Virus record (IMG/VR): IMGVR_UViG_3300007960_000237
Location: 1 to 21,873 of that record
Source of the DNA: a virus
DNA: 21,873 nt
Strand: one strand, 5' to 3'
Part shown: positions 3,483-21,873 of the stretch, one piece after another
Layout of the letters: each line of letters starts with the position of its first letter
Numbering within the stretch: position 1 is the first letter of the stretch
Program-made: the position numbers and the translations under genes
Notes under the pieces: model-generated
Databases searched by the model: none
Seen by the model: only the letters and a program-made list of their open reading frames with translations
Told to the model about the DNA's origin: nothing

Positions 3483-3890
3483 ATGAAAAAATCAGAATTA
3501 AGACAAATCATAAAAGAGGAAATTAAAAGAGTCCTTAATAAAAATCTCAAACTTGAAATAGATGATGATTATGTTGAATTATCAGCAGATTCAGGTGAAT
3601 ATTCTTCTTTTGTAGAAGATAATGGTAAAGTTTCATTTTCAGTAGTATATGATGATGAAGATGATAGAGATGGAATGGAATTTGATGAAGATAATTGGAA
3701 ATCAATTTTAGGCCCAAACCATGCTTTTGTTGAAATAGCAAGTAAAATTCCTACTGAAGTTGAAGCCCTAGATGACTATGTTATGATCACAGTAGATTTA
3801 GAAGATCTTAAAAAAATATCTGATATTAAATATATTGAAGATGGTGGTTTAGAATTAGACCCCAATTACTTTAAAATAACTTATTTATAA
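3483..3890 (+). CDS. Small very acidic protein with N-terminal ELRQIIKE tag
   Basis: 135 residues starting MKKSELRQIIKEEIKRVL, close to the head of the protein at 3066; the two genes share the first 15 bases exactly. After the basic/amphipathic head the body is strongly acidic (for example VVYDDEDDRDGMEFDEDNW near residues 55-75) and looks like a small beta-rich domain. Nothing in the body resembles a family I know. The start follows an A-rich run (caataaaaaacaatg) without a Shine-Dalgarno. A terminator follows at 3909. A structural or internal-head protein is one possibility given the shared tag, unproven. Confidence 0.7.
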   Translation: MKKSELRQIIKEEIKRVLNKNLKLEIDDDYVELSADSGEYSSFVEDNGKVSFSVVYDDEDDRDGMEFDEDNWKSILGPNHAFVEIASKIPTEVEALDDYVMITVDLEDLKKISDIKYIEDGGLELDPNYFKITYL

Positions 3891-3908
3891 AATAAAATAA
3901 AATTCAAG

Positions 3909-3951
3909 GAGCTGTGACCCTTACAAAAGTTTGAGTCTCAGCTCTTTTTTT
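3909..3951 (+). terminator. Rho-independent terminator
   Basis: Stem GAGCTGTGAC (3909-3918) pairs with GTCTCAGCTC (3935-3944): ten positions with one T-T mismatch, a 16-nt loop, then seven Ts (3945-3951). It closes the unit ending with the acidic tagged protein. A reading frame that could be opened at 3931 lies inside this hairpin, so the following gene must start later, at 3982. Confidence 0.85.
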
Positions 3952-3961
3952 CATATATTTA
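3930..3961 (+). promoter_or_regulatory. Bacteroidetes-type promoter overlapping the terminator
   Basis: TTTG (3930-3933), exactly 20 nt, TATATTTA (3954-3961), 20 nt before the ATG at 3982. The -33 half is inside the loop and 3' arm of the terminator hairpin, so terminator and promoter are interleaved. The -7 half is the left arm of an AT inverted repeat TATATT-TATT-AATATA (3954-3969). Confidence 0.55.
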
Positions 3962-3981
3962 TTAATATAATAAAAAAACCA

Positions 3982-4719
3982 ATGAAAGAATTTGACCTAA
4001 AAAAATACCTTATTGAAGGTAAATTATTAAAAGAAAATACTAATTCTGAATTAATAAGCTCCTTAAATAAAGCAAAGGATATATGTTGGAGTTTATATGA
4101 TAAGGATGTGACTGATAAAATTGATCTTCATCGATTAGCTGAAGACCTTGAGGATTGGAGAGATAACTATGGGGATCTTCATGATTTAAGATCTTTTCTA
4201 GAAGACACAATTGAGGCTTTATCAAATATATATACTGAATTTGGAGGGGAAGAACTAATGAATACTTTACAATCCTCTTTAAACTTAGCTGATATTTTAT
4301 ATAAAGAAGATGAGGAAAGTTATAATGAGGAAGAAGAAGAATATTCTGATGAAGAAAAATCCCAAATCCAACAAAAACAAGATAAAAAAACCTTCATACA
4401 TCAACAAGATGAGGAGATTTATAAAAAATTACTCCAATCCATAGAATCAGCCTTTCCTGATAAATCCTCAGGTAATCGTTTAGGGGATGAAATTTTTCCT
4501 CAATCTACCTTTAATATGATATCAATCGAACATCCAGGTTTTTCAAATGGTGTTTTTATTGAGGTAAAATCTGAAAATTATAATAGAGATGGTAGTCCTT
4601 CATTTATCCAAGTACATGATAATAGTGATTATTTTGGGGAAAGTGAGATGGATAAGAATTTTGAAATTAATGATATACAAGGAGTTATAAACCATTTAAA
4701 AAAATATTTAAGATCATAG
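3982..4719 (+). CDS. Acidic protein with N-terminal DLKKYLIE tag
   Basis: 245 residues beginning MKEFDLKKYLIEGKLLKEN. This head is almost the same as that of the protein at 12463 and fits the broader pattern found at 3066, 3483 and 13457. I place the start at 3982 rather than at the upstream in-frame codon at 3931, which lies inside the terminator. The middle is very acidic and low complexity (YNEEEEEYSDEEKS, about residues 115-128), probably disordered; the C-terminal ~100 residues look like a folded alpha/beta domain. No family recognised. LIE followed by G and LKE followed by N fit the L/I-x-E cleavage preference known for T4 gp21 prohead protease, hence an internal head protein is a hypothesis. 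Confidence 0.7.
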   Translation: MKEFDLKKYLIEGKLLKENTNSELISSLNKAKDICWSLYDKDVTDKIDLHRLAEDLEDWRDNYGDLHDLRSFLEDTIEALSNIYTEFGGEELMNTLQSSLNLADILYKEDEESYNEEEEEYSDEEKSQIQQKQDKKTFIHQQDEEIYKKLLQSIESAFPDKSSGNRLGDEIFPQSTFNMISIEHPGFSNGVFIEVKSENYNRDGSPSFIQVHDNSDYFGESEMDKNFEINDIQGVINHLKKYLRS

Positions 4720-4834
4720 AAACATAAAAAAATCTAAAAAAAAAATCTATAAATCTTCGTATAATCTCTAAAGAAGAGCTTATTAGAAGAAGATGTTCTG
4801 CTTATAAAAAACTAGTGGAATAATTAAATTATAG

Positions 4835-4866
4835 TTTGGGGGGGTTAAATAAGTTGCGTATATTGA
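4835..4866 (+). promoter_or_regulatory. Bacteroidetes-type promoter for the SSB-recombinase unit
   Basis: TTTG (4835-4838), exactly 20 nt, TATATTGA (4859-4866), 29 nt before the SSB start. It lies in the longest gene-free gap of the window (4720-4895), whose first part is A-rich and holds an open frame with no start codon (4728-4823, see findings); no hairpin terminator is visible there. Confidence 0.5.
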
Positions 4867-4895
4867 GTTATTAATAAATAAAATAAAGTTTTACA

Positions 4896-5714
4896 ATGGA
4901 CATAAATGCTATAAAGAAAAAATTAGATATATTATCTAATAAATCAAACAGTTACTCTAATAACAATAAAAATCTTTTCTGGAAACCATCACCAGGGAAA
5001 CAAGTAATTAGAGTGGTTCCTTCAAAATTTAATGATAAGACTCCTTTTACTGAAATGAGGTTTTATTATGGTATTGGAGATAAAAAAGTGATGGCTTCAC
5101 CGGTTAATTGGGGTGAGAAAGATCCTATTTATGAATTTGCTAAAACACTTAGACAAAGTGATGATAAAGAAAATTGGGCTTTAGCCAAAAAACTAAGCTC
5201 AAAAATGAGAACTTTTGCACCTATTATTGTAAGGGGAGAAGAAAGTGAAGGAGTTAAACTATGGCAGTTTGGAAAGGAAGTTTATGAAGCTTTTCTACAA
5301 ATGGCAGTTGATGAAGAAATAGGAGACTTTACAGATGTTATGTCTGGTAGAGATATCAAACTAACTACTGTAGGACCTGAATCTACAGGAACACCTTATA
5401 ATCGTACTACTATTAGCCCTTCATTAAAGACTTCACATTTGATGGAAAGTAAAGAAGAAATTGATAAGCTTCTTGAAGAACAAGTAAACCCAATGGATTT
5501 GTTTAAACCTCTTCCTTATGATGAAATGAAACAAGCATTGATGGATTGGTTGGAGCCTGAAAGTGATGAAGATGAAATAATTTCAGAAACAGCAGATGAA
5601 TTTGATGATTTGAATCCTCCTAAAAAAGAATCAAAGCCTTATTCAATGCAAGTTAAAAAGAAAAAAGCAGACTCTTTTGATGAGCTATTTAAAGAAGAAG
5701 AAACCAATTCTTAA
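4896..5714 (+). CDS. Single-stranded DNA-binding protein, T4 gp32-like
   Basis: 272 residues, close to T4 gp32 (301). The N-terminus is basic and polar, the core has the FWKPSPGKQVIRVVPSKF stretch (near residues 28-45) typical of gp32-type proteins from marine T4-like phages, and the C-terminal ~70 residues are strongly acidic (EPESDEDEIISETADEFDD), the region that in gp32 recruits other replication proteins. I see no cysteine in the protein, so the zinc site of T4 gp32 is absent. It has its own promoter-like element and is followed after 10 nt by the UvsX-like gene, a sensible partner since UvsX displaces gp32 on ssDNA. No Shine-Dalgarno. Confidence 0.75.
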   Translation: MDINAIKKKLDILSNKSNSYSNNNKNLFWKPSPGKQVIRVVPSKFNDKTPFTEMRFYYGIGDKKVMASPVNWGEKDPIYEFAKTLRQSDDKENWALAKKLSSKMRTFAPIIVRGEESEGVKLWQFGKEVYEAFLQMAVDEEIGDFTDVMSGRDIKLTTVGPESTGTPYNRTTISPSLKTSHLMESKEEIDKLLEEQVNPMDLFKPLPYDEMKQALMDWLEPESDEDEIISETADEFDDLNPPKKESKPYSMQVKKKKADSFDELFKEEETNS

Positions 5715-6859: not shown

Positions 6860-7882
6860 ATGAAGAGAAAAGAATTACTAAAGCTCCTTGAAAATGTTCA
6901 AGAAGATAAAGAATCAATAGCAGAGGGGAAAAGAGTCTTAGTAATAGATGGTTTAAACCTATTTTTTAGAAACTTCGCAATCCTTAATATGGTTAACCCT
7001 AATGGGGCCCATATTGGGGGATTGGGTGGTTTTTTTAGGTCTCTAGGGTTCTTAATCAAACAAATGGACCCTACTGAAGTTTATATAGTATTTGATGGTA
7101 TAGGTTCTTCCCAAAATAGAAAAAACCTTATTCCTGAATATAAATCTAACAGACATTTAACTAGAGTAAACTCTGTAGTATTTGATGACTATGAGGAAGA
7201 ATCAGATGCTAAAATAGACCAAATCATTAGGATAATCCATTATCTAAAAACCCTCCCAGTTAAAGTTATATCAGTAGATAAAGTAGAGGCTGATGATGTT
7301 ATTGCCTTCTTAAGTAAAGAAGTTCCTAAAGATCCAAAAGATAAAGTATTTATAGTTTCTTCAGATAGAGATTTTATACAATTAATAAACAAAAATACTA
7401 TCCTATATAGACCTATAGAGAAAGAATACTACACAGAACAAACCGTAGTAGATAAATTTCAAATCAAAGCAGAAAATTTCCTAACATATAAAATATTAAT
7501 GGGAGATAATTCTGATAAAATACTAGGAGTTAAAGGATTAGGACCAAAAAAACTATTTAAATTATTTCCTGAGTTAAAAGAACAAAAAACTACTTTAGAT
7601 GATATCTTTGACATAAGTGAAAAGAAAATCAAAGAAAATCTAATATATGCTAGGATATTACAAACTATAGAAGAATTAAGGAAAAATAGCAGAGTTATGG
7701 ATTTATCAAATCCTATGTTAAGTGATGATGATAAAACATTCCTTGAAGAAGTTATTAAATCACCTATCCCAGATTATCTACCTTCCCATTTCATTTCATT
7801 ATATGAAGAAGACCATTTAGGGAATATAATAAGAAATGTAGATTCTTGGCTTAAAGAAGTTTTTGAAAATTTAAAAAGATAA
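6860..7882 (+). CDS. 5'-3' exonuclease / RNase H of the FEN family
   Basis: 340 residues with the FEN/PIN nuclease order: VLVIDGLNLFFRNF (metal-binding D near residue 30), VYIVFDG, a basic arch segment (NLIPEYKSNR), KVEADDVIAFL (paired acidic residues), VFIVSSDRDFIQL, then LMGDNSDKILGVKGLGPKK, which is the acidic ligand plus helix-hairpin-helix DNA-binding region. T4 RNase H (rnh) and the Pol I 5' nuclease are the known relatives; the role there is removal of RNA primers and flaps from lagging strands. There is a ~24-residue charged N-terminal extension before the first core strand. The helicase gene follows after 7 nt. I prefer the T4 RNase H-type function by context. Confidence 0.85.
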   Translation: MKRKELLKLLENVQEDKESIAEGKRVLVIDGLNLFFRNFAILNMVNPNGAHIGGLGGFFRSLGFLIKQMDPTEVYIVFDGIGSSQNRKNLIPEYKSNRHLTRVNSVVFDDYEEESDAKIDQIIRIIHYLKTLPVKVISVDKVEADDVIAFLSKEVPKDPKDKVFIVSSDRDFIQLINKNTILYRPIEKEYYTEQTVVDKFQIKAENFLTYKILMGDNSDKILGVKGLGPKKLFKLFPELKEQKTTLDDIFDISEKKIKENLIYARILQTIEELRKNSRVMDLSNPMLSDDDKTFLEEVIKSPIPDYLPSHFISLYEEDHLGNIIRNVDSWLKEVFENLKR

Positions 7883-17370: not shown

Positions 17371-18149
17371 AAATATCCCATGAAACCCCTAAATGTTTAC
17401 TAGAATGGAGTAAATCCAATATGGACTACCAATATGCTCTAGTCCACTTACTTGAGGAAGATGAAGAATATAGAGAACATTTTTTACAATGTAAAAAAGA
17501 TGGGATTCCTATCTATTTAGATAACAGCTTACATGAATTAGGAGAGGCTATTGGTGGTAAAATTCTAGAGAAATGGATAAATATTTTGGAACCTAAACAT
17601 GTTTTTGTTCCTGATGTATGGGAAAATTCTGAAGAAACAATAAAAAACTCCATGGAATGGAGTAATTTTCAATATCCTTCAAATACCACTCCAATTGCTA
17701 TTGTACAAGCAACTTCCTATGATGAGGCTTCTAAATGTTATAGTAAATTAAAAGAAATAGGATATAATAAAATAGCTTTTTCATATGGGGCTCATTATTA
17801 TAAGGGGATGTTTCCTCATCCAAATAGATTTATAAGTGGGGCTTTAGGAAGGGTACTTGTTATTTCTAAAATGTTTGAAGATGGAATTATCTGGGAGACT
17901 GATAAAATCCATTTATTAGGTACTTATACTCCTTTGGAATTTTCCTTTTATAAAGACATGTCCTTTATAGAAAGTATAGATACTTCAAATCCTGTAATGG
18001 CTGCTGTAGATAATATGATATATGATGATTTAGGGATTTTTAAAAAACCTTCATCAAATATGAATAAATGTTTTGAAATCCCAAAAGAAGATGTTAACTT
18101 ACATATATTAGAACATAACATACAAATTTTTAGAAAATTAACTAAATAA
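17367..18149 (+). CDS. tRNA-guanine transglycosylase-like protein; DpdA-type DNA deazaguanine insertase candidate
   Basis: 260 residues with TGT/DpdA-like landmarks in the right order: YLDNSLHELGEAI (D52, position of the base-binding aspartate in DSGGFQ), VFVPDVWE (about 80-86), a beta-strand ladder (AIVQATSYDE, KIAFSYGAHY), HLLGTYTPLEF (183-192, like YLMGVGxPED) and SIDTSNPV (203-210), where D205 would be the nucleophile that TGTs have in FDCVxPTR. It lacks the C-terminal CxCxxC zinc site of bacterial TGT, as expected for the phage DpdA branch, which swaps guanine in DNA for a 7-deazaguanine. A QueC homologue three genes downstream supports this. The call rests on motif reading, not on an alignment; a tRNA-directed or other TIM-barrel enzyme is not excluded. 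Confidence 0.55.
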   Translation: MKISHETPKCLLEWSKSNMDYQYALVHLLEEDEEYREHFLQCKKDGIPIYLDNSLHELGEAIGGKILEKWINILEPKHVFVPDVWENSEETIKNSMEWSNFQYPSNTTPIAIVQATSYDEASKCYSKLKEIGYNKIAFSYGAHYYKGMFPHPNRFISGALGRVLVISKMFEDGIIWETDKIHLLGTYTPLEFSFYKDMSFIESIDTSNPVMAAVDNMIYDDLGIFKKPSSNMNKCFEIPKEDVNLHILEHNIQIFRKLTK

Positions 18150-18625
18150 TGCAAGTATTTTTACCTTATACTGATTTTAAAAAGTCTTTAGAATCTTTAG
18201 ATGATAAACGTTTAGCAAAACAGAGAGTTGAAACCTACCAATTAATAGCAGGTTTAGAAGGAAGACCTACCAAAACAGGAAAACCTTACTCACTATCCAG
18301 AATAAACCATCCTATATCCCAAATGTTTAGAGATAACATACCTGCTCTAAAACATTATTTAAATTTATCTATTGAAGTATGGGAAGCTAGAGGTAAAAAT
18401 AATACTATGAAAAAAGAAGAGATTAATGAAGAGATAAAAATGCCTATATGGTTTGGTGATGATAGTTTTCATAAATCCCATAGACAAAATTTATTAAGGA
18501 AAGATCCTGTTCATTATGGTAAAGAAGGATGGTCTGAAGATCCTAATGATGTTTATAGATGGTATGATATGAATAAAAATCAATGGTATAGTCAAAAAGT
18601 AGGAACTAGTATTAAAATGTATTGA
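18149..18625 (+). CDS. Pyrimidine-dimer DNA glycosylase-like protein
   Basis: 158 residues beginning MQVFLPYTDFKKSLESLDDK then RLAKQRVET, the start pattern of proteins annotated as pyrimidine dimer DNA glycosylase / MSMEG_6728-like, with HPISQMFRDN, then a C-terminal SHRQNLLRKDPVHYGK segment also found in that group. The relation to true T4 endonuclease V (DenV) is distant, so UV-repair activity is inferred by family label only. It starts in a TAATG overlap with the TGT-like gene, so the two are translationally coupled; coupling of a base-excision-type protein to a base-exchange enzyme is notable. No signal or membrane segment. Confidence 0.6.
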   Translation: MQVFLPYTDFKKSLESLDDKRLAKQRVETYQLIAGLEGRPTKTGKPYSLSRINHPISQMFRDNIPALKHYLNLSIEVWEARGKNNTMKKEEINEEIKMPIWFGDDSFHKSHRQNLLRKDPVHYGKEGWSEDPNDVYRWYDMNKNQWYSQKVGTSIKMY

Positions 18626-18626
18626 T

Positions 18627-18782
18627 ATGGCGTATATTAAAAAAATAATTTGGGGGGATAATAGAGGGAGGAATAGAATAGATTTGGATTGGGATAAGAG
18701 TTTAGTTAAATTAGGTAATAATAAACATAGATTAACTATAGAAGAAGAAGACATTATTAATAAAATAGTAGATAGATTATGA
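18627..18782 (+). CDS. Small hypothetical protein, 51 residues, coupled to queC
   Basis: Reads MAYIKKIIWGDNRGRNRIDL to a TGA at 18780-18782 that overlaps the queC start (ATGA); it begins one base after the preceding stop. It fills the gap completely, is charged and soluble-looking, and ends in a helix (EEEDIINKIVDRL). The tight packing on both sides is the main evidence that it is real. Function unknown; no family recognised. Confidence 0.55.
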   Translation: MAYIKKIIWGDNRGRNRIDLDWDKSLVKLGNNKHRLTIEEEDIINKIVDRL

Positions 18783-19660
18783 AGAAAAAAAATGTAGTAT
18801 TATCCCTCTCCGGAGGGTTAGATAGCAGTACTCTCCTTCTAAGATGTTTAGAAGAATATGAAAATGTAACATGTTTAAGTTTTGATTATGGTCAAAAACA
18901 TAAAATAGAACTTGAAAAAGCTAGAGAATTAGTAGAATATCTTAATGATAATCCTTATAGGATATGGTGGAAAAATAAAAATGTCCTTACTACATACCCT
19001 AAAATTACTCATAAGGTGATTAAACTTGATGGTTTATCTTCTTTATTGGTAAGTGGGTTAGTAGACAATGACTCAATGGAAATGAAAAAAGGACATTATG
19101 CTCATGAAAATGCCCTTACTACTGTAGTTCCTAATAGAAATGCTATATTTGCTTCTATAACATATGCTGTAGCTTTATCAATGGTTAAAAAGAATAATTT
19201 CCCATGTGATATAGCTTTAGGTACCCATATGGGGGATTTTGATAATAATAAAAAAGAAGGAATTTATCCTGATTGTTCTGAAGAATTTAGAATAGCTTTA
19301 GAGTATGCCTTTAAAATAGGAAATTGGGATTCAGAAAAAGTAAATTATTATGCTCCCTATAATATTACTGACAAACCAGGAGTTCTTAAAGATGGGTTAA
19401 AATTATGTAAAAAACTAAAATTAGATTATAAGGAAGTTTATAAAAGAACAATGACTAGTTATTCTCCTGTTAAAAAAGGTAATGAGTCTTTTAGTGATTA
19501 TAAAACCGGTTCTAGTATAGAGAGAATTGTTAGTTTTATAGAAGCAGGGAAAAAGGATCCTATAACTTATGTGGAAGATGATGGTACTCCTGTAACTTGG
19601 AAATATGTTAAGGAATATGCTCTAAAATTAGAAGAGGAATTTAAAAGGAACCATAAATAA
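18779..19660 (+). CDS. queC: QueC-like 7-cyano-7-deazaguanine (preQ0) synthase, zinc cysteines replaced
   Basis: 293 residues. The PP-loop SGGLDSS (11-17), FDYGQKH (36-41, ATP/base contact), VVPNRN (116-121) and ALGTHMGDF (146-154) are QueC hallmarks; QueC makes preQ0 from carboxydeazaguanine, ammonia and ATP. The C-terminal zinc site, normally TxSCY...CGxCxxC, aligns to TMTSY and DYKTGSS, so the four cysteines appear as S227, D240, T243 and S246 while surrounding family residues are retained (KRTMTSY; IEAGKKDPITY). About 60-70 residues longer than E. coli QueC (231), including an insertion around 52-80. It may use a metal-free fold or have shifted function. queD, queE and folE are not in this window. 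Context with a TGT-like gene suggests DNA deazaguanine synthesis. Confidence 0.85.
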   Translation: MKKKNVVLSLSGGLDSSTLLLRCLEEYENVTCLSFDYGQKHKIELEKARELVEYLNDNPYRIWWKNKNVLTTYPKITHKVIKLDGLSSLLVSGLVDNDSMEMKKGHYAHENALTTVVPNRNAIFASITYAVALSMVKKNNFPCDIALGTHMGDFDNNKKEGIYPDCSEEFRIALEYAFKIGNWDSEKVNYYAPYNITDKPGVLKDGLKLCKKLKLDYKEVYKRTMTSYSPVKKGNESFSDYKTGSSIERIVSFIEAGKKDPITYVEDDGTPVTWKYVKEYALKLEEEFKRNHK

Positions 19661-19694: not shown

Positions 19695-19895
19695 ATGAAT
19701 ACTCAAATATCTTTCCAACTAAGTGATTCACAACAAGAAAAATATGATGAGTGGATGTGTGCTATTCATAAAATATATGGAAAGTATGGTATTATGACGT
19801 GGTCTTATTCATCTAATGGTATAGGAGCATCTATCAAGGTCCATAGCGAACTAGCTAATGTAACATTAGATTTGACTAATGTAGATGAATTTTAA
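19695..19895 (+). CDS. Small hypothetical protein, 66 residues
   Basis: MNTQISFQLSDSQQEKYDEW opens a soluble, probably alpha/beta protein with strands ITWSYS-like and ASIKVHSELANVTL. It lies between queC (34-nt gap with a T7 run but no stem) and thymidylate synthase. No family recognised, no membrane segment. Confidence 0.5.
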   Translation: MNTQISFQLSDSQQEKYDEWMCAIHKIYGKYGIMTWSYSSNGIGASIKVHSELANVTLDLTNVDEF

Positions 19896-19911
19896 AGTTA
19901 TTAAGAATAAT

Positions 19912-21873
19912 ATGAACAACCTAGATAAACAATATCAATCTCTTCTAAAAGACATACTAGAAGAAGGAACCCTAAAAACTACAAGAAATGGTAAAACACT
20001 TTCAGTTTTTGGTAGACAAATAAGACATAATATGTCAGATGGTTTCCCATTACTCACCACTAAGAAAATGGCATTTAAAACTATGGTGAAAGAGTTGTTA
20101 TGGTTTTTAAGAAGTGATACCAATATCCAATGGCTAGTTCAGAATGGTTGTAACATCTGGAATGGTGATGCTTATAAGAATTGGTGTAAACAATTTGAAG
20201 TTGACCCTATTAATTTTGACGCTGAAGAATTAGTGAAAGGGCATGGTGACCAATGTTGGGGTTATCCAATATTAGACCACGTTAAACCTACATCAAAGGA
20301 GTACAAGAGAGGACAGATAAATGCCTATTTAGAAGGTAAAGCCGAGAAACCTTTCTTTTATTTAACACAAGAAGAATTCATCAACAAAATCAAAACAGAT
20401 GATGAGTTTGCTAAGAAGTGGGGTGAGTTAGGACCAATATATGGAGCCGGGTGGAGGAGGTGGAAAACATATAAACCAATAATGATTGAAAGAAGAATTA
20501 AGGAAAAATCAAAACTTAATATTAATTTTCCTTTGTTGGAAGTAGAAAAAGATGAAAATGATGGCTTTATAGGAAAGAAATTTTATAATAATAAAAGTCA
20601 AGAAGAATACATTGTTATACAAAAAGTAGAAGGAGGGAATAATTCTAAATATTTAGTTCAATTTTTATCTAATGGTTATACTAAAATTGCTTCTCGTCCT
20701 AACATTAAAAGAGGACAGGTAGTTAATCAATATAAACCTTATATTGAGAATGTAGCTTTTCTAGGAAACCCAAATAAAAACATTAATTATTATAAACAAG
20801 CGTATGGTTTGTGGTATAATATGATAGTTAGATGTTATAGACCTTCGAATCCATTTTATAAATTTTATGGGGAAAAAAACATATTTGTTGATAGTAGATG
20901 GTTATGTTTTGAATATTTTTTAGAAGATATAAAAACTATAACTAATTTCAATAAATGGGTATTAAATCCAAAAGAATTTGATTTAGATAAAGATTATTAT
21001 GGTTCTAATTGTTACTCTAAAGATACTTGTTATTTTCTCCCTAAATATGAAAATGTAACCCTTAAACATTATAAACCATTCTTAGCTAAAAATATAAATA
21101 CAGGGGAAGAAATTATTGAAATATGCCAAAAACATTTTGCTATTAAACATAGTTTAAAACCAACATATATATCTTATAGACTTAATTCTAACTCAACAAA
21201 ACCGTATAATGGGTGGGTATTTAAATGGTTAACTTATGATGAATCTAAATATGTTTGGAGGTATCAACTCCACATAGACCAAATCGCAAACCTAATCCAC
21301 GACCTTAAAACAAATCCAGACTCAAGACGATTAATGGTAAATGCTTGGAATGTTGGAGAATTGGATTCAATGGTACTTCTTCCTTGCCACTATGGATTTC
21401 AAGTTTATACAAGAGAATTGGCAACTAAAGATAGATTAAAAATATTGATCGATCGATGCAGTGATATCGACTATAAACAAGGATTAGAGGAAGCATTTAA
21501 CGATTGGCATAATCCTAAATGGGCGCATGGCGTTTTTGAAACAGAGATGGATGATGCAGAAATACCAACACGAGCAATCTCTTTAATGTGGAATCAACGC
21601 TCAGTAGATACATTCTTAGGTTTACCATTCAACATTGCATCTTACGGATTGTTGTTAGAAATCATTGCCAAAGAAGTTAATATGGTTCCTGATGAGTTGA
21701 TTGGTAATTTAGGTGATGTTCACCTTTATACCAATCACATTGAACAGGCAAAGGAACAATTGACGAGAGAACCAATGGAGTTACCAAAACTAAATAAGTT
21801 ACCCGATTACTTATGTATGAAGGATAATTGGGAGTGTTATGAACCTTCTGACTTCACTATAGAAAACTATCAA
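19912..21873 (+). CDS. thyA: Thymidylate synthase with an internal HNH-endonuclease-like insertion, open at window edge
   Basis: One uninterrupted frame of 654 codons reaches the window end without a stop. Residues 1-188 match the N-terminal half of ThyA (FPLLTTKKMAFKTMVKELLW, NGCNIWNGDAY, WGELGPIYGAGWRRW); residues from about 450 match the rest (HIDQIANLI, DSRRLMVNAWNV, catalytic C492 in LLPCHYGFQVY, FLGLPFNIASYG, LGDVHLYTNHIEQ). ThyA methylates dUMP to dTMP using methylene-THF. Between the halves lie about 260 residues unlike ThyA (see next feature). I chose ATG 19912 over in-frame ATG 19885, which overlaps the previous gene and adds nine residues. One hand-counted line of ThyA sequence (21481-21540) is 42% GC against 23% in the insert (20581-20640), so the ThyA halves look less AT-rich than the phage background, suggesting acquisition from a host. 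Confidence 0.9.
   Translation, partial: MNNLDKQYQSLLKDILEEGTLKTTRNGKTLSVFGRQIRHNMSDGFPLLTTKKMAFKTMVKELLWFLRSDTNIQWLVQNGCNIWNGDAYKNWCKQFEVDPINFDAEELVKGHGDQCWGYPILDHVKPTSKEYKRGQINAYLEGKAEKPFFYLTQEEFINKIKTDDEFAKKWGELGPIYGAGWRRWKTYKPIMIERRIKEKSKLNINFPLLEVEKDENDGFIGKKFYNNKSQEEYIVIQKVEGGNNSKYLVQFLSNGYTKIASRPNIKRGQVVNQYKPYIENVAFLGNPNKNINYYKQAYGLWYNMIVRCYRPSNPFYKFYGEKNIFVDSRWLCFEYFLEDIKTITNFNKWVLNPKEFDLDKDYYGSNCYSKDTCYFLPKYENVTLKHYKPFLAKNINTGEEIIEICQKHFAIKHSLKPTYISYRLNSNSTKPYNGWVFKWLTYDESKYVWRYQLHIDQIANLIHDLKTNPDSRRLMVNAWNVGELDSMVLLPCHYGFQVYTRELATKDRLKILIDRCSDIDYKQGLEEAFNDWHNPKWAHGVFETEMDDAEIPTRAISLMWNQRSVDTFLGLPFNIASYGLLLEIIAKEVNMVPDELIGNLGDVHLYTNHIEQAKEQLTREPMELPKLNKLPDYLCMKDNWECYEPSDFTIENYQ
20477..21250 (+). 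mobile_element. HNH homing-endonuclease-like sequence in frame inside thyA
   Basis: Boundaries are approximate (codons ~189-446 of the thyA frame). Parts in order: GKKFYNN (221-227) and SNGYTKIASRPNIKRGQV (~253-270), the N-terminal module of phage HNH proteins; W301 to Y309 (LWYNMIVRCY) and FYGEKNIFVDSRWLCFEYF, matching the W..M..RCY / YG..I.V..RW..FE.F pattern; LDKDYYGSNCYSKDTCYFLP (358-377), where relatives have an LDKD...YSPETCxFVP motif; and a C-terminal NUMOD/IENR-like DNA-binding repeat ending NGWVFKWL (to ~440). No intein splice motifs and only about 90 nt of sequence outside the HNH-like modules, too little for a group I intron core. How, or whether, the product becomes a functional ThyA is unclear. 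Confidence 0.75.

Follow-up and report, generated by a model that had tools for sequence, protein, structure and literature searches.

In standard accounts, homing nucleases reside harmlessly in essential genes by way of a self-splicing intron or an intein. Inteins and group I introns favor conserved sites (PMC2814812), and HNH endonucleases of the PHROG_2081 family occur in group I introns of the DNA polymerase genes of Bastillevirinae (PMC11878797). The co-conversion of flanking sequence is a pattern of homing and has been described for elements of phage T4 (PMC2988022). Another kind of insertion is the ShiLan domain, a hidden HNH insertion in the DNA methylases of actinobacteriophages (PMC11855218). 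Searches of the open-access literature found no description of a thymidylate synthase with an HNH domain in frame. The thyA gene described here carries a domain of the homing-nuclease family in its own open frame.

The window, the whole stretch of DNA that was analyzed, is a virus record of 21.9 kb, and thyA is its last gene. The features of the gene are as follows.

19885..21873, + strand, thyA open reading frame with the in-frame insert; 663 codons, stop-free, open at the record end
19912..20472, + strand, N-terminal part of ThyA, up to GPIYGAGWRRWKTY; ThyA profile match over residues 8-203
20431..20463, + strand, conserved motif GPIYGAGWRRW, directly 5' of the insert; sites A and B flank this motif
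20461..20478, + strand, predicted entry strand WKTYKP (full-length model, E193-198)
20473..21270 (approximate), + strand, in-frame insert of the homing-nuclease family at site A, placed by the PHROG_2081 match, uninserted relatives and the entry and exit motifs
21253..21276, + strand, predicted exit strand VWRYQLHI (full-length model, strand 459-464), with the exit Arg of the motif YRxxL
21271..21873, + strand, C-terminal part of ThyA (DQI, PCHYGFQ, QRSVD...); ThyA profile match over residues 450-663

The second Met of the frame, at 19912, gives the better alignment with the starts of the relatives, and the record end removes only about the last 10 ThyA codons, judged against the related viral contig L001. 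The Pfam ThyA family (PF00303) matches the frame in split pieces that cover both sides of the insert (2e-80). From the entry and exit motifs the insert comprises about 266 codons, approximately K197-L462; the closest conserved ThyA residues are W193 (20461) before it and D465-Q466 (21277-21282) after it, DQI resuming from 21277. A stop-free run of 266 codons has a chance of about 7e-13 at the base composition of the insert, and its remaining five frames contain 12-52 stops. The original prediction, made from the sequence of the window, of a stop-free insert of about 260 codons between GPIYGxxWR and DQ thus holds, and its placement at 20470-21255 was right within a few codons when set against uninserted relatives and the motifs. 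It had also described the insert as AT-rich like the phage and flanking ThyA as less so: the GC content is indeed 24.3% in the insert and 35.3% in the ThyA flanks, but the window as a whole has 30.0%, so that the insert is more AT-rich than the phage average.

Near-invariant ThyA residues are kept in the window, for example P55, E70, W92, R481, R482, C501 and D575, and these conserved residues suggest that the fusion works as a ThyA. A full-length model built on a 61-row alignment is confident over the ThyA part, keeps the thymidylate synthase fold and aligns to thymidylate synthase structures (L. casei TS, E 7e-24). The insert is poorly modeled there (pLDDT < 50), and it was therefore judged from a model of its own.

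Elsewhere in the window, positions 1-1000 have a GC content of about 41%, compared with 24-37% in the rest, and hold the gene of a repetitive DUF285 protein, which was probably acquired recently. The region preceding thyA (18149-19660) contains genes for a pyrimidine dimer glycosylase-like protein (PF03013) and for a QueC-like protein (PF06508), and a 7-deazaguanine pathway in the phage is possible. Positions 7669-7687 match part of the 5' region of the insert exactly over 19 bases (E 4.6e-4), probably by chance in AT-rich DNA.

When searched alone, the insert matches PHROG_2081, 'HNH endonuclease' (E 1.9e-44), and more weakly the phage HNH families phrog_953 (5.7e-16) and phrog_374 (9e-15). 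Modeled alone with 32 family members, it reaches a mean pLDDT of 90, and three parts are predicted.

20557..20721, + strand, predicted SH3/Tudor-like small beta-barrel (insert model residues 33-87)
20788..21069, + strand, predicted helical HNH-like core, with strand-strand-helix at 20977-21069 (FDLDKDYYGSNCYSKDTCYFLPKYEN)
21067..21240, + strand, predicted I-HmuI-type C-terminal DNA-binding domain (HTH, NUMOD-like), from structural and profile matches

The best structural neighbor of the insert model by both methods is the homing endonuclease I-HmuI (1u3e). The C-terminal domain accounts for this likeness, having I-HmuI 1u3e_M as its top neighbor (Z 7.5, rmsd 1.8, 56 residues), and the structural alignment spans the HTH part only, not the HNH-like core. 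The same domain was found when a 32-sequence profile was searched against the PDB (I-HmuI 1u3e, E 0.0011); a 7-sequence profile gave no match in that search. PF22083, I-HmuI_NUMOD-like, is present in 4 family members, and the DNA-binding domain of I-TevI is a weak structural neighbor (Z 4.6). The barrel has weak matches to SH3/Tudor-type barrels (Z 4-6.6). For the HNH-like core, the model predicts strand-strand-helix at E173-176, E191-194 and H195-203, with D176, K177, D178 and N198 conserved; the VIA table lists no HNH-core match, which is not evidence of a different fold.

Canonical HNH nucleases have Asp-His at the catalytic motif, the His being the general base. The motif of the insert, LDKDYY, reads D-K-D, with Lys in place of this His, and aligned family members have Lys or Arg at the same position (Asp-Lys or Asp-Arg). 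Because of this replacement DNA cleavage by the insert is not assured, and the insert is named here a homing-nuclease-family domain rather than a proven HNH nuclease. The earlier description of the insert as endonuclease-like is thus right at the level of family and fold but not for the canonical catalytic residue. A putative nuclease activity is plausible from the family and from its mobility. In the fused frame the dN/dS of the insert is 0.115, which indicates purifying selection.

The arrangement is not a singleton but recurrent and mobile, with empty-site relatives. The thyA genes of two viral contigs, L001 and L002, carry the same insert at 91-92% identity. Members of the nuclease family lie in the open frame of ThyA in 25 sources, including the window, among viral contigs and phage records; in some of these the flag for the N-terminal part of ThyA fell below the cut-off, yet the printed sequences show that part. 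One more in-frame fusion came from a genome collection (L157), which gives 26. The frame is kept in every one of them, and no PHROG_2081-type insert out of frame inside thyA was found among the loci. Sequenced isolates with the fusion include Bacillus phage 015DV002, Klebsiella phage KP13-7 and Tenacibaculum phage PTm1. Beyond the 26, the family occurs in thyA of Enterococcus phages, where the isolates A2 and 163 also have an in-frame fusion, and in about 58 Krischvirus (RB49-like) records. Near the fused thyA of L001 (405-794) and of L007 (4283-4591) there are short open reading frames homologous to the variable middle segment and the C-terminus of ThyA.

Two insertion sites are used, in the two loops on either side of one GPxYGxxWR motif. 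Site A, that of the window, lies after GPxYGxxWRxW and before DQ; site B lies between IWxxW and GPxYG. The site B inserts form one group (89/92) in the insert tree, and those of site A are mixed with free-standing genes. On the tree of ThyA flanks, 9 changes of state (site A, site B or no insert) are required; because many of its branches are long and few are forced, it was not used to count independent invasions. The free-standing relatives adjoin ribonucleotide reductase genes; 015DV002 (L161) has a second, free-standing family member between the genes of the ribonucleotide reductase beta-subunit and thioredoxin. On the contig L005 (2773-3525 and 4312-5184), a nuclease of the site B type stands without thyA and near thyX (PF02511, 1.2e-35); its entry and exit strands are like those of the fusions, and it is perhaps an orphan that remained after replacement of thyA.

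The loop was readable in 50 uninserted relatives, in which the residues from YGxxWRxW to DQI are unconserved and number from a few to about 45. On these alignments, the loop at site A is a permissive one, hypervariable in uninserted relatives. A short Arg-bearing exit motif, typically YRxxL, stands just before ThyA resumes in all 26 fusions, at both sites, and free-standing relatives mostly lack it, L005 being the exception. In our reading of the full-length model, which is not a measured contact, the entry strand 193-198 would pair with the exit strand 459-464.

Uninterrupted alleles, which the original prediction proposed to look for in related phages, were found in 000TH008 and EFDG1. Between the Bacillus phages 015DV002 (occupied) and 000TH008 (empty), the identity of thyA is 0.96-1.0 up to ...GSWG; after the insert, some 45 ThyA codons of 015DV002 have another ancestry (0.58-0.71 to 000TH008), and then the identity is 0.98-1.0. 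The Enterococcus phages A2 (occupied) and EFDG1 (empty) repeat this pattern at site B. A similar pattern, more diverged and less clean, is seen between KP13-7 (occupied) and K64-1 (empty).

Pairs of occupied alleles were compared as well. Between the window and L001, its nearest occupied relative, the insert has a dS of 0.36 and the ThyA flanks have 1.55 and 1.00, and one tract of high identity extends beyond the insert.

20380..21412, + strand, tract of high identity to L001 (0.82-0.98), overrunning both insert edges into ThyA

Outside this tract the DNA identity of the pair is mostly lower. For A2 and 163, the dS values are 0.008 (insert) and 0.58 and 0.13 (flanks), and the two are 0.98-1.0 identical from where the insert begins to about 100 codons beyond its end. 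The footprints are thus sharp at the 5' edge of the insert and reach about 45-100 codons past the 3' edge. The low-divergence footprint is clear for recent pairs only; a test for greater similarity in inserts than in flanks, run on the pooled pairs, fails for the old ones (34/146). Empty-site alleles, precise insertion and co-conversion of the flanks, by which a homing element is recognized, were all found. The low dS of the insert would be the footprint of homing, and unaided phage recombination could contribute to it.

No known splicing element accompanies the insert. An Rfam search of 19700-21873 with E up to 5 gave no group I or group II intron over the insert, a permissive search of two other inserts gave no intron, and a search of the 26 sources at gathering level gave none inside the inserts. 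The sole source with an Rfam group I intron is L009 (2614-4523), which has an in-frame insert at site B and, downstream, an intron (RF00028, 58.5 bits, 3849-4179) that splits the thyA frame at the YQRS motif. In L027 (2048-5532), the in-frame insert is at site A, and downstream of it about 1.7 kb with a GIY-YIG-like open reading frame (4274-5125) interrupt thyA and break its frame. In the Klebsiella phage RCIP0023 (L168, 399-2356), thyA is split as well, and the annotation places an intron-associated endonuclease in the interruption. Rfam gave no intron there even at E up to 1; Rfam is therefore not fully sensitive, since it missed this likely intron.

Known routes other than introns were considered as well. 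The insert starts at K/P and ends with YQL before HIDQ, so that the first-residue nucleophile, the terminal Asn and the following Cys, Ser or Thr of an intein are missing, and no Hint family match was found in Pfam or PHROGs, as the original prediction of no intein had it. Bypass of the T4 gene 60 type has a stop after the take-off codon and a gap of about 50 nt; here no stop is present and about 800 nt are constrained coding sequence. A hidden out-of-frame nuclease of the ShiLan type was rejected because thyA and the nuclease domain share one frame and the other frames are full of stops. Separate translation of the inserts was rejected because they have no internal start codon with a ribosome-binding site in common; the AGGAGG-like stretch at 20455 consists only of the WRRW codons, and the ATG closest to it, at 20482, is about 20 nt off.

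In the Krischviruses (RB49, Phi1, JSE and others), the insert in the td gene has shrunk to an in-frame remnant. This remnant has neither the barrel nor the C-terminal domain, its LDKDYY motif is not intact, and the insert tree places it as sister to the KP13-7 insert (99/98). The dN/dS of the remnant is 0.17-0.72, compared with 0-0.03 in the N-terminal part of ThyA, and the remnants are stop-free, the sole length variant (RB49) keeping the frame. A decayed element is not expected to self-splice, and Krischvirus ThyA is thus most likely made with the remnant inside. The complete insert domain is likewise most likely retained in the finished enzyme. In the td of JSE (Krischvirus set L153-L156, L017), the C-terminal part of ThyA has also diverged strongly, with a dS of about 0.8-1.0, and may be a product of recombination.

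Probably, then, a homing-nuclease-family domain spreads by homing into permissive loops of ThyA and remains part of the enzyme without any partner for splicing. A mobile domain made of an SH3-like barrel, an HNH-like core and an I-HmuI-type DNA-binding domain would invade the thyA loop from GPxYGxxWR to DQI. Insert-free thyA would be broken or nicked near the sequence that codes for GPxYGxxWR, and repair from an occupied allele would copy the insert together with some flanking ThyA sequence. The insert brings short strands at both ends, and these may allow ThyA to close up with the insert as a bead on its loop. Translation of the gene would give one polypeptide with the domain staying in ThyA, and no splicing would be needed because, as we propose, the loop tolerates the insert.

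It is unlikely that an unrecognized process, such as an atypical self-splicing RNA, protein splicing or ribosome bypass, gives a mature ThyA without the insert. The entry and exit motifs common to inserts at both sites, the existence of introns with nucleases of the same PHROG in the polymerase genes of Bastillevirinae (PMC11878797) and the interruption of RCIP0023 that Rfam missed would all fit such a process. Those Bastillevirinae introns, however, carry about 350 nt of non-gene sequence (PMC11878797), whereas nearly the whole thyA insert is constrained coding sequence with little space for a ribozyme, and even permissive cut-offs gave no Rfam intron over it; the claim that there is no room for a group I core is borne out to this extent. 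Residues of the intein type and the stop that bypass would need are lacking, the variable loops are not the conserved sites that inteins and group I introns prefer, and the frame is intact in all fusions and even in the decayed Krischvirus remnants. A particular form of removal, in which the entry strand and the Arg exit motif (YRxxL) mark a new nuclease-bearing element that excises or ligates at the protein level with no Hint domain, is very unlikely. The original prediction had left a choice between a fusion and a new kind of removal; the hypervariable loop, the insert's own end strands and fold, the purifying selection on it, the preserved frame and the remnants favor the fusion, and nothing positive was found for removal.

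In a doubtful reading, the insert has ceased to be selfish and is a domesticated accessory module for DNA binding or regulation of ThyA, its high identity between phages reflecting ordinary recombination. Purifying selection on the insert, the Lys in place of the catalytic His and the decayed remnant kept in the Krischviruses are consistent with domestication, although these remnants evolve in a relaxed manner and are not conserved. The patchy presence, with near-identical phages lacking the insert, the footprints with a sharp 5' edge and a long 3' overrun, and the free-standing relatives beside ribonucleotide reductase genes, which are placed like homing genes, argue against it. That the locus is a mis-assembly, or a thyA pseudogene hit by a nuclease gene by chance, is hardly credible. 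The window does end inside the gene, and the GC content of the insert differs from that of its flanks, but the architecture is repeated in two other contigs (L001 and L002) and several sequenced isolates, which contradicts the assembly join that had been considered for the window; furthermore, the frame has no stop, the near-invariant ThyA residues are present, and the dN/dS is 0.16 and 0.27 in the two ThyA flanks.

Beside the intron and the intein, the data support a third way for a homing nuclease to reside in an essential gene, as a folded domain inserted in a spare loop of the host enzyme. This way is repeated in at least two dozen thyA genes at two loops and seems under-recognized. Active-looking elements, empty sites and decayed remnants are all present in sequenced phages, several of them isolates, which makes a complete and testable life cycle. 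In-frame inserts also explain the oddly long thymidylate synthases of some phages, and in the fusions nature provides cases of a classic enzyme with large inserted domains.

Among known systems, the T4 td intron with I-TevI and other thyA group I introns with GIY-YIG nucleases likewise target thyA and co-convert its flanks, but they are spliced as RNA, break the frame and lie further downstream in the gene, as in L009. The I-HmuI and PHROG_2081 intron nucleases of Bacillus phages have the PHROG and the C-terminal DNA-binding fold in common with the insert, yet they ride group I introns, whereas the thyA insert has no intron and has Lys for the catalytic His. Similarly, mobE in nrdA of Aeh1 and mobA in gene 60 of T4 are nucleases in essential genes with no self-splicing element (PMC2988022); they split the host gene into separate polypeptides, while the thyA fusion is encoded as one continuous polypeptide.

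In-frame nucleases of another family have been described in other hosts. The rps3-LAGLIDADG fusions of fungal mitochondria are in frame with no splicing element of their own detected (PMC7902536), but rps3 itself lies inside a group I intron. The lone in-frame LAGLIDADG of the actinobacteriophage methylases is also in frame with no splicing element detected (PMC11855218), and differs in its apparently vertical inheritance. The ShiLan domain of these methylases is, like the thyA insert, a homing-type element inserted in the gene of a phage enzyme; it too has no detectable intein or intron, no stop in the host frame, a patchy distribution and presumed retention in the protein. However, the HNH of ShiLan is out of frame, its host-frame translation is unrelated and poorly folded, and its site is conserved, whereas the nuclease of thyA is in the host frame, is predicted to fold as a domain, lies in a hypervariable loop, is found repeatedly at two loops and has left behind remnants that are decayed but in frame.
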